Shown piece by piece: positions 15,644 through 52,995 of a stretch of 64,000 bases of DNA; position 1 is the stretch's first letter, and every line of letters begins with the position of its first letter. The notes beneath the pieces are model-generated. The model was not told the origin of the DNA, did no database searches, and was given only the letters and a program-made list of their open reading frames with translations. The position numbers and the translations under genes are program-made. The stretch is from Pyrenula massariospora (Eukaryota > Ascomycota > Eurotiomycetes > Pyrenulales > Pyrenulaceae). Location: assembly GCA_021030905.1 (NCBI GenBank), contig JAGFMI010000026.1:1-64000 (forward strand), read 5' to 3'.

Positions 15644-17779
15644 TTAGAAATTCTCCGCCAGCTTCCGCTCCTTCGGCGCCATTCCCTTCTCTACATCGTA
15701 CCCACTATACGCATCTCCCTCGCTCTCTCCCCTCTGTGCGTCGATGGCCTCCCCTTCGTACACAACCGAGAACCGCCTGTCTGCCGCTTCTGGCATCTCA
15801 CACCAAACGTCACTCGTCGCAGGAATAGGGAAAAACCGGCACAACAACCAGTATGTCACAGCTGCAATGATGAACCCAGCGAAAAAATTTACCCGGTAAA
15901 TGTACACTGCGCCAATGGGCACCTTAGCTCCAACGGCATCAGCGAAACCGACGATGTTGATAAGGATGCCACAAATGTAAGCGGTGTAGCCGCGCCAGGA
16001 CCATCCGAACCAGTAAAAGTATGGCGATGCCGACTGTGCGGAGTAGAGGTTCTTGAGTTCGAGATAGCCCTTGCGGACGATGTAGTAGTCACAGATGATG
16101 ACACCAGCGATACTCGAAAGGAAGACGGAATAAGCGGAGAGATAGGTGGTGAAGCTGTTTGAGGAAGAGAGGAGATTCCATGGACACATGACGAGACCAA
16201 CCGTAGCGCAGATATAACCACCTCTTCGAATATTTAGGTAGCGAGGGAGAAGCGCGGTCATGTCGGTACCGGCTGACACAGAGTTTGCAGCGATATTCGT
16301 GCCTAGCTGGGCGAGCGTAAATGCCGCAGAGATAATGAAGACTCCAAATCGTTCGCCAGAGCTAGCACCATCGAGAAATCGGCCAAGCAGAGTGAGCGGG
16401 TTCCAAATGAACCCATCGTGGAAGATAACATCCGAGGAAGAAGAGACGATAATGCCGATGAATGAGGTAACGGCAAAGCCACATGGGATGGTGAATAGCT
16501 GAGACCATAATGCAGCTTTCGGTGACTTTGCAAACCTGGCAAAATCTGGATCGTTCACGATTAGGGTTGCGAAGTTGGCGATCGAGGACATGATGCCAGA
16601 GATTATGCCCCAGGCGAGGTCGCTGCCATGAGCCTTGCTAGGTTGGTGGACGATAGGCCCAACTCCACCGGCTCGTGCTACGGCCCAGCCGAAATAGGCG
16701 ATAGCAGCGGTAGGGACGAAATAGGCTTTGACAGTAAATAAATGTCTGTAGAAAGTTAGGTACAGTTGAGGACCAAACAGGAGGCTAGGTAGCGGAAGTC
16801 TTGGCGCATCCAACATACACCGGGCGGGCGGCAATGTTAACAGTCAGATGCGCCACGGTTTCTCACACCCAGCCTTGAGAAGCTCCTGGGAGACATACCT
16901 GATTTTGTGGACGGGGAACCAGATTGCTGGCAAGGAGCCGAGCCAAAAGAGGAAGAAGGACAAGAAATCCCTAGTGTTCGTCCCTGAGCCAGGAATCCCG
17001 TTGGGAATATCGTTGTAGGACGTCCAAATTGATCGTATCATCAACGTTACACACTCACCACCAATCCAACTCTGAACGCCGTACCATATGCATGCCATAG
17101 CGGCGCGATTGAATACGGGCCATAAGCTCCCCCAGATCCCAAAAGAGGCTCTCGATACGACCGGAAATGAGATGTGATAGGTTGCACCGATTCTTCCAGT
17201 CATGCAGATGAATATTGCAGCAATGAAATATCCAATCCAAACACAGAGCCATGACTGCCACCAGGACAAACCTCCTTGTATCATAGCGGAAGAGATCATC
17301 CAAGTATTGATGTTAAAACTGTCCGCGATCCAGAAGCCGACGAAGTTCCAGCTACCTGTGAAAAATCATCACTACAAGCAAGCAAGGAGAATCTCAGAGG
17401 CCATACCCCATTGTCGGCGTTCAGGTTCGACGGGCTTGAGGTCATGATTGGTGAGCATGAGCTGGGCATTGGTGAGCCCTGGCTCACTCTCGACAGCGAG
17501 CTTGTCGGCATAATACTTCAGCTTTGAGGACCTGAACCTGTCCATTGTGATCTTTGATCGAGCTGTCATGGTCGGTCTGGTATATGTATCGGTTCGCCCG
17601 GTAGGCTGAAAAGAGACAGCTTTGCGCTTAAAGTGTGCAGTGGTCGGGTTCGTGCTGTTCTGTAGAAAAGGGTCTTCACCTAGGAGGGGAACAGAGTCTG
17701 CCGCCCCAGTATCGTTATCTGTGTTCAAGTCTAGCAGCGGAGCAAGCTCGATCGATTCGTGAATTGAGGCGGGTGACAT
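15644..17779 (-). CDS. NCS1-family nucleobase/allantoin-type permease
   Basis: Three exons (17779-17407, 17355-16899, 16745-15644), 643 aa. The long cytosolic N-terminus of about 120 residues is Ser/Thr-rich. The transmembrane core starts at the conserved NCS1 segment [17 protein letters not shown], and about 12 hydrophobic segments follow. NCS1 symporters import uracil, allantoin, uridine, cytosine or similar compounds with H+ or Na+; sequence alone does not give the substrate. The exon 1/2 join ([10 protein letters not shown]) and the exon 2/3 join ([13 protein letters not shown]) restore family-like sequence. Intron 2 is 153 nt and contains palindromic element copy A. HGATAR motifs upstream suggest nitrogen control. 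An upstream in-frame ATG at 17845 is less likely. Confidence 0.88.
16779..16877. repeat. Palindromic element copy A, in intron 2 of the permease gene
   Basis: The arms are imperfect inverted repeats. On the plus strand it starts GAGGCTAGGTAGCGGAAGTC, then TTGGCGCATC, and ends GATGCGCCACGG, then TTTCTCACACCCAGCCTT. The core TGGCGCATC/GATGCGCCA is shared with copies B-E. It lies wholly inside the 153-nt intron 16898-16746. Its orientation relative to the host intron is opposite to copy B. Confidence 0.75.
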
Positions 17780-18741
17780 GAAGATCTTATAGGTTCCGCA
17801 CTGACAAAAATCTGATCTCTGGGTCCCATGCCACACACCCTGCAACCATCTGGTCCAAGGGAACGGTAGCCTCTGGTCCAGCCAAAGTTAAAATTTTCGG
17901 ATGCCCATTTTGATAGGGCCTGCTTTTCCGCTCAGATAGGACAAACATCCCGTCAACAGTCCGGATTGCGGGTAGTCCAGAGACCCCTGCGATGGAGAAG
18001 TGAGGGCGATGATAGGGAAAAATTCGCGAAGGGAGTATCTGCAGACGACGGGCTGTTTGCTGGCATCAGAGAATTTTCCCACCTTTCCCCACACTTGGGC
18101 GCGGGCGCCATCCGGGGTTGCTCAGGCTGGGCTTACCTCTTGGAGGTAAGATCATGGCCAGCCTTATCTTTATCTCTGTTACTCGATGCCATCGAGTCAG
18201 ACCAGTCATGCGCCGTGATGTAACCGAAGGGAGGAGCTTGGCCATGTCTCGTGTGCTTGGGGCTATTTTGGCCGTCGGTCGCCCCCGCTCCATCGCCAAT
18301 CCTCGAATGGGCTCCTAAACCGGGGGCAAAGCTCTTAGAGGGCGGGCGTCCCCGAGAAAGGTGGACCGTGCCGCTAGCCGAGGAGAACAGTGTTCTTCTA
18401 GATTTAAGAAGAATCGAGCCATATACAACGTCACTTGCGCTTATAGAAGACGGCATTTGAATCGCTCGAGGCAAAAGACTGATAATGCAACGCTTTCAGG
18501 TCGGATCTTTCTCGGTAGCATGATGGAGCCGAGCCGACAGCGACGTTCGAGGCAGGGCATCAAAAGTCACGGCCTGTCCAATGCGCGCCGGACGGACGCC
18601 AGTCCTCACCGTCAGTTGCGCTATGATTTCTGAAACCCAACCTTGTGCTGCGAATTGTGAATTCACAACTGCAACTTCTACCCAGGAGAAGGAATCATGC
18701 AAATTCGTCCTTGTTAATTTCCTCATTTTGCGGCCATCGTC
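17780..18741. other. Intergenic region between the permease and the AAA-HET gene
   Basis: Contains the permease promoter with GATA motifs and the 3' flank of the AAA-HET gene. Open frames on both strands at 17888-18772 overlap one another and have no domain. Confidence 0.5.
17911..18175. promoter_or_regulatory. Cluster of HGATAR (GATA-factor) motifs upstream of the permease
   Basis: TGATAG at 17911 and 18010, AGATAG at 17934, and a tight pair at 18163-18175 (AGATAAAGATAAG on the minus strand) lie 130-400 bp upstream of the permease ATG. AreA/Nit2-type GATA factors bind HGATAR, often as pairs, and NCS1 permease genes are commonly under nitrogen metabolite control. The motifs are seen; regulation is inferred. 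Confidence 0.4.
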
Positions 18742-51751: not shown

Positions 51752-52904
51752 CCAGGAGCTATGATATCTCTAAATTTTCATGCAATTCACCTTACTCGGA
51801 ACGCAAAAGAGATGTTGCGTGCGACTGCGCGGTCTACCAAGATTAATGCTCTGCACATAGACCTACCTCGCAGTGGCCTTGGAAAACAAGGCGCGTGTTC
51901 GCGTCTAGGGGCAACAGTGAACCCACGCCCTCCACAGCTCAATCCCGTCCCGAAGCTGCCCATCTCAATGCCGCTCCCTGCCCCAATTCCAACGACATAC
52001 GGCCTACCTCACCCTTGAAACATAAAGCCGGCGCCGACTATTGTCCACCAAACATCTGTCATAGTAGTGGCCGACCCCAATTGTCGTGACGCCTCCATCT
52101 GGCAAGATCAACAACGCCCGAAACCCCACCTTCATGCAAGTCTCGACAAAAGATCGACACCGACCTCACATTCCGCGGATTTGAGGAATCCAATCCGTCG
52201 GTATCTCTCGGGAAATACCAGCTACGATAGGGGGACTCATTCCCCTATCTCGATCGTATGATCTCGCGCAAGTAAAGGCCCAGGGTTTGCTCGCATCACA
52301 GGCTCACGCGTAACTGCACCGATTCTATTCGGGCAGCGAGCATCAATCCGAGAAAACAACCAACCCTTTTCAAGAGTTTCGCTGAACCACAGAAAAAAGC
52401 CAGGATCGCTGCACCCTTAGCACTGGCAGAGTTAGACAGTGGAGCATCAAACGCCTTTGACGGCAGCCTAGTAAGAAGATTTTCGAATTAAGATCTACAC
52501 GGTGCAGCACCCTCACTCAGCTCACACCAAATTCCCCGAAACCCTCAGCTCACAGCTGAAGCGACTATCTATTTGATTAGATAGATGCCCCCCATCCAAA
52601 GAACCCGAAGGCTTACGCCTCCGTGCATAAAACGCATAAAACTGCGATTGTGAGGTCCCATCGCGCTCGAAAACCCACAAACCATCTCTTTCTACAAAAG
52701 CTTCCCGAAACCCGGCCGAGAATTGGGCGCCGCTGAATCAACGCAGTTGCCACCCATCCATCTTAGTTGCCAAGTCAAAACTAATGAGTAATCCTCCCCG
52801 TCCCATTGGTGATGTCACTATCGATCCATAATCGCACTACATGACGGCTGAACATATCTCCACCCAGCAACGACTGGCACGGGGAACCGGCTGTTGGGTA
52901 GTAG

Positions 52905-52995
52905 GGCGTTATGTTAGAGGTTATGGTGTATCTGATTGTTAGCATTGGCGCCGAACCAGCATATACTAAACACGCCACGACTTCTGGCACTCAAG
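52905..52995. repeat. Palindromic element copy D, intergenic, one arm decayed
   Basis: The right arm CACGCCACGACTTCTGGCA is well preserved. The left arm AGAGGTTATGGTGTATCT differs from its partner at six of 18 positions, all transitions. The interior CTGATTGTTAGCATTGGCGCC matches copies E and A. Confidence 0.7.

Follow-up and report, generated by a model that had tools for sequence, protein, structure and literature searches.

The first 64,000 nucleotides of contig JAGFMI010000026.1, referred to here as the window, carry several copies of a short palindromic repeat, some of which lie inside the introns of intact genes. The locus raises the question of how such repeats came to reside there: whether they create introns themselves, are retained within them by selection, or merely landed in them. 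Our analysis indicates that the repeats very probably stem from a miniature inverted-repeat transposable element (MITE), a non-coding palindrome of 98 bp, whose copies have since decayed, and that those found in introns most likely arrived by chance in short introns that were already in place.

Identity and mobility of the repeat family

The original prediction listed five loci with similar arms. All five carry the element, as judged both from the inspected sequence and from a covariance model that matches each of them, its training set of 32 copies including all six from the window. The sixth window copy was located at ~18543-18649 by a profile derived from the other copies. It is now evident that the family is real and far more numerous than five copies. 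When the whole genome was scanned (37.8 Mb in 33 contigs, with the window corresponding to C18 positions 1-64000), the arm motif yielded 232 matches with up to two mismatches, compared to 2 for the motif read backwards, which bears out the expectation of further copies genome-wide and of an arm likeness beyond chance. Two longer arm patterns gave 106 and 150 matches across the genome, and their reversed versions gave none. Within 61 sequences, comprising the window and the sampled loci L001-L060, two profiles identified 79 element clusters, whereas the same searches of the reversed versions of these sequences returned no matches. The sample leans toward well-preserved copies, as it was drawn mostly from the first 100 arm-motif matches (48 of the ~78 distinct elements there). 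Approximately 290 kb outside the window included 10 clusters that had not prompted the sampling (a hand count); the extrapolated copy number is ~1300 (about 600 to 2400 when Poisson error is allowed for), although this is a rough hand calculation that assumes no clustering. The copies are diverged: 40 of 184 candidate places were scored, and the best of these matched the consensus at 94%.

The 98-bp consensus, CGAGGCTGGGTGTCAGAAGTCGTGGCGCATCTGATTGTTAGCATTGGCGCCCGCCCGGCGTATATTGGATGCGCCACGACTTCTGACACCCAGCCTCG, is nearly all palindrome. Among its outermost 36 position pairs, 33 are complementary, which yields terminal inverted repeats with matched arms of ~33 bp each and termini of the form CGAGGCTGGGTGTCAGAAGTCGTGGCGC.... 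There is also a sister subfamily of 82-95 bp with termini like CGAGGCTGGGTGACAGAAATCGTGGCC, in which the arms of the copies at L052, L053, L055, and L056 appear perfectly matched by eye. Furthermore, the two types combine into composite elements of 169-173 bp, in which a unit of the 98-bp type is enclosed by sister termini (L034:1457-1629, L047:1496-1664, L054:213-385, and L058:220-388). Arm pairs spaced 138-143 bp apart, as in these composites, were counted 14 times by eye among the 100 listed of the 106 matches to one of the longer arm patterns.

Evidence of mobility comes from the flanks. Using the terminal CGAGGC, ends could be assigned in 76 of the 79 clusters, with 63 clean and 13 ragged, and 3 had no assignable ends. 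An exact 3-bp flanking repeat is present in 31 of the 63 clean-ended copies, compared to an expectation of 1 from base composition; across 2000 permutations the mean was 2.5 and the maximum 9. Other repeat lengths are nearly absent from the same copies (one of 2 bp, none of 4 bp, and one of 5 bp), and a 3-bp duplication is lacking in all 13 ragged-ended copies. A fixed 3-bp duplication together with sharp ends characterizes DNA transposons that are mobilized in trans, i.e. MITEs. The proposal of a very short MITE is likewise upheld by the inverted repeats, the non-coding length, and the high copy number. Among the six clean-ended clusters longer than 125 bp, three (L047, L054, and L058) are duplicated at their outer ends, and therefore the composites moved as units. 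Presumably, an autonomous DNA transposon would supply the transposase, which would recognize the ~33-bp termini in trans and paste the element into 3-bp staggered cuts. We infer both this transposase-driven movement and an autonomous partner that may have been lost or simply not found.

Several points weigh against the decayed MITE interpretation. Firstly, the target-site duplications that were anticipated are evident in the wider sample, but an exact 3-bp duplication is absent from all four clean-ended copies in the window itself. Secondly, the evidence for mobility comes from this one genome. Thirdly, no autonomous element was found, although the transposase controls barely responded and its absence is consequently not shown: DDE_Tnp_4 had no matches in the genome, with its control detected in only one of 14 genomes, while Transposase_21 and KDZ also had no matches, with controls detected in none.

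Residence within introns

Three copies, designated A, B, and C, lie wholly within introns of intact reading frames, as had been claimed, although they constitute three of six window copies rather than three of five. Copy A (16780..16877, minus strand, 98 bp, 87.7 bits) is found in an intron of a uracil/purine permease gene. The intron itself (16746..16898, minus strand) spans 153 bp, or ~55 bp without the element, and has the form GTATGT...CTACAG. The spliced permease is 88% identical to protein P0009, and the alignment is gapless across the intron A junction. Copies B and C occupy two introns of a single gene at 18742-24364 on the minus strand, which encodes ~1746 residues after splicing, with AAA ATPase domains and a HET domain; to judge from its domains, the product looks like an unusual fungal allorecognition-type protein. 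Copy B (20624..20725, minus strand, 52.1 bits) lies within an intron of 208 bp (20550..20757, minus strand), of which ~106 bp remain once the element is discounted. Four acceptor positions were tried for this intron and only one yields an open frame; removal of the intron extends the HET profile match from positions 1-93 (96.4 bits) to all 146 positions (117.7 bits). Copy C (23012..23110) is nearly symmetrical and has no assigned strand. Its intron (22975..23148, minus strand) is 174 bp long, ~75 bp of which remain without the element, and excision restores a Walker A motif, GPPGTGKT. Thus, introns A, B, and C are real, insofar as their predicted splicing is confirmed by the predicted spliced proteins. 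Outside these introns, the sixth copy (18548..18645, minus strand, 77.1 bits) is situated ~100 bp downstream of the HET-gene stop, whereas copy D (47819..47921, minus strand; 103 bp, with extra bases in one arm) and copy E (52902..52999, plus strand) are outside predicted genes.

One possible explanation for this arrangement is that the repeats are introner-like, i.e. a transposon that creates introns by inserting into exons and obtains its splice sites from itself, from the target duplication, or from adjacent exon. The presence of three window copies within introns is in keeping with such an origin, and many introners are described as having inverted repeats and duplications, with some of them relying on the insertion site for both splice sites (PMC9860276). 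In introns A, B, and C, the donor and acceptor sites are located 21-74 bp beyond the element ends. External splice sites alone are not decisive against an introner, because some introners borrow both from the target. Had copy A inserted into an exon and borrowed these splice sites, ~18 residues would have been lost, yet none is missing relative to P0009, and removal of intron C leaves a complete Walker A motif. With the splice sites as well as 55-106 bp of ordinary-length intron external to the elements, the copies most likely inserted into existing introns. Presumably, such insertions would be tolerated because the donor, branch site, and acceptor were all left intact.

The wider sample is also unfavorable to an introner-like origin. 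Gene context was assessed with a simple home-made gene finder trained on long open frames and applied to 50 sequences (the window, L001-L048, and L050) after excision of the elements. This finder is weak per base, and comparisons were made only against positions in the same sequences. The counts pertain to 66 copies, as 13 of the 79 clusters (L049 and L051-L060) were excluded due to short flanks. With a looser intron setting, 44.6% of bases were classified as coding, 2.4% as intron, and 53.0% as other, whereas the insertion points numbered 1, 4, and 61, respectively. A stricter setting gave 41.9%, 1.5%, and 56.6% of bases compared to 0, 4, and 62 insertion points. Coding sequence is therefore strongly avoided (P < 1e-15). 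The four copies in predicted introns are A, B, C, and L015:2270. From the non-coding share, 2.8 (looser) or 1.7 (stricter) intronic copies would be expected (P = 0.31 and 0.089), and outside the window only 1 of 60 copies is intronic, compared to 2.4 or 1.4 expected (P = 0.92 and 0.75). A separate test, which is independent of predicted introns, asked whether the insertion is flanked on either side by long open frames that share a strand; this is the case for 11 of the 66 copies (16.7%) and for 18.9% of random non-coding positions. Genome-wide, there is consequently no preference for introns over intergenic sequence, with 61 or 62 of the 66 copies outside predicted genes, and the intronic cluster is local to two neighboring genes and is not upheld in the wider sample. 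With splice sites external to the copies and no intron excess, intron residence favored by selection or by element-borne splice signals, as suggested in the original prediction, is not supported, and an introner-like origin is highly improbable. A self-retrained version of the gene finder was also tried. It assigned 25 of the 66 copies to introns and 17 to coding sequence, while classifying 22% of bases as intron and 52% as coding. These counts would look like an intron excess, but the gene models are plainly false, with genes chained together (e.g. a window gene with 8.5 kb of coding sequence), and this version was therefore dropped.

Copies A and B had been described as opposite in orientation relative to transcription, whereas both score best on the minus strand, the same as their genes (A, 87.7 vs 40.7 bits; B, 52.1 vs 28.8 bits). 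Copy C scores 63.7 bits on the plus strand and 58.2 bits on the minus strand.

It is also conceivable that intronic MITE copies persist through their folding: a hairpin would loop out the insert and so hold the splice sites close together, in which case hairpin strength would be selected. The folding comparison, performed on both strands of the 56 copies of at least 90 bp, indicates that structure declines with divergence. In the transcribed orientation, folding is strong for A and C (z = -5.2 and -10.1, respectively) and weak for B (z = -2.2). The hairpin of copy C is the strongest among the intronic copies and is unusual for a copy of its score: at -52.9 kcal/mol on the transcribed strand (z about -9 to -10), it exceeds every other copy below 60 bits and ranks third of the 18 copies below 72 bits. 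The folding of A, B, and the intronic L015 copy (L015:2269), however, is no stronger than that of other copies of like score. By eye, B and C appear to belong with L024:132 and L048 to one inner-symmetric variant, and C's long stem may accordingly be a subfamily trait. Among 231 mutated arm pairs, 198 are changed on one side only, 17 are compensated, and 16 are doubly changed without pairing. The 17 compensated pairs slightly surpass the shuffled mean of 10.4, and 1.4% of shuffles attain that count of 17, but one-sided changes prevail. One copy is too little for a claim of selection, and we regard selection on hairpin strength as improbable.

The copies do lie close to genes. The median distance to the nearest predicted gene is 277 bp (43 copies), compared to 609 bp for random non-coding positions (P ~1e-4). 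Such proximity could be expected if the repeats were not mobile DNA but host regulatory hairpins, such as transcription-end or boundary elements. This explanation is difficult to reconcile with the 3-bp duplications and sharp termini or with the mostly one-sided arm decay. Furthermore, 65% of the copies have a 5' end as their nearest gene end, compared to 59% of random positions, and therefore neither gene end is favored. A regulatory role of this kind is hardly credible.

Superfamily affiliation and other repeats

Known groups of DNA transposons were compared as possible sources of these MITEs. PIF/Harbinger (Tourist-like) MITEs duplicate a TWA triplet on insertion. The triplets flanking the present copies are of another kind (TAA in 1 of 31 and TTA in none), which does not fit a PIF/Harbinger derivation, and DDE_Tnp_4 had no match. 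MITEs derived from CACTA (EnSpm) elements have termini of CACTA or CACTG. Although the 3-bp duplication would fit this group, the termini are instead CGAGG...CCTCG, and Transposase_21 had no match, with none of its controls responding. The non-TWA 3-bp duplications, the termini CGAGGCTGGG, the near-perfect palindromes of 82-98 bp, and the mobile composites could all point to a superfamily of DNA transposons for which no fungal member has yet been described, which we consider unlikely. Two wide arm pairs, at L049 (~556 bp) and L050 (~7.4 kb), were considered as candidates for the autonomous element, but each proved to consist of separate short elements.

Other repetitive and transposon-related sequences were encountered as well. 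Three DDE_1 matches in the genome (C28:1556289-1556651, C22:1899328-1899723, and C29:1439275-1439523) each contain several in-frame stops, which suggests old, inactive DNA transposons. Within the window, a second and unrelated MITE-like element of 275 bp (25350-25624) has 41-bp inverted repeats that are 98% complementary. It matches six other places in the genome at 70-95% over at least 185 bp, with shorter arm matches elsewhere. The window also includes a tandem array of the 16-bp unit TTGTACCTTGCGTCAG (10638-10781) as well as seven diverged repeats at a spacing of 57 bp (once 60 bp) in a predicted coding exon (29979-30373, minus strand).

Comparison with known elements

As the original prediction invoked introner-like elements of the kind described in Dothideomycetes, the affiliation of the host is also of relevance. 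The translated permease exon (15647-16744) shares 90% identity with an ENA protein and 85% with a Pyrenula ochraceoflavens protein, and its next named matches are from Endocarpon and Exophiala. Pyrenula belongs to the Pyrenulales in the Eurotiomycetes, not the Dothideomycetes, and from these protein matches the host is probably not a Dothideomycete. A literature search on transposable elements of Pyrenulales genomes found no paper. Introners and introner-like elements are characterized as short multi-copy sequences found in introns, and some introners have inverted repeats and duplications (PMC4457414, PMC9860276). Relative to these, the MITE copies differ in that nearly all of those sampled lie outside genes, their splice sites are external to the element in the three window cases rather than at or next to its ends, and the copies are diverged. 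Intronic repeats clustered in a single window are weak evidence for introners, since the wider sample removes the intron signal.

Other parallels are with the MITEs and inverted-repeat elements of other filamentous ascomycetes. The mimp elements of Fusarium oxysporum are reportedly short non-coding MITEs with terminal inverted repeats and a TA duplication, often located near genes. The present family is similarly short and non-coding, with terminal inverted repeats, a target duplication, and frequent nearness to genes, but it has other termini, a duplication of 3 bp rather than TA, and a length of 98 bp that is nearly all palindrome. Guest of Neurospora crassa reportedly also measures 98 bp, carries inverted repeats, and makes a 3-bp duplication, a likeness of general features. 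The family is real but ordinary, a further member of the known MITE class, to which it contributes, from a fungus close to Pyrenula, very short high-copy elements that duplicate 3 bp and form composites.
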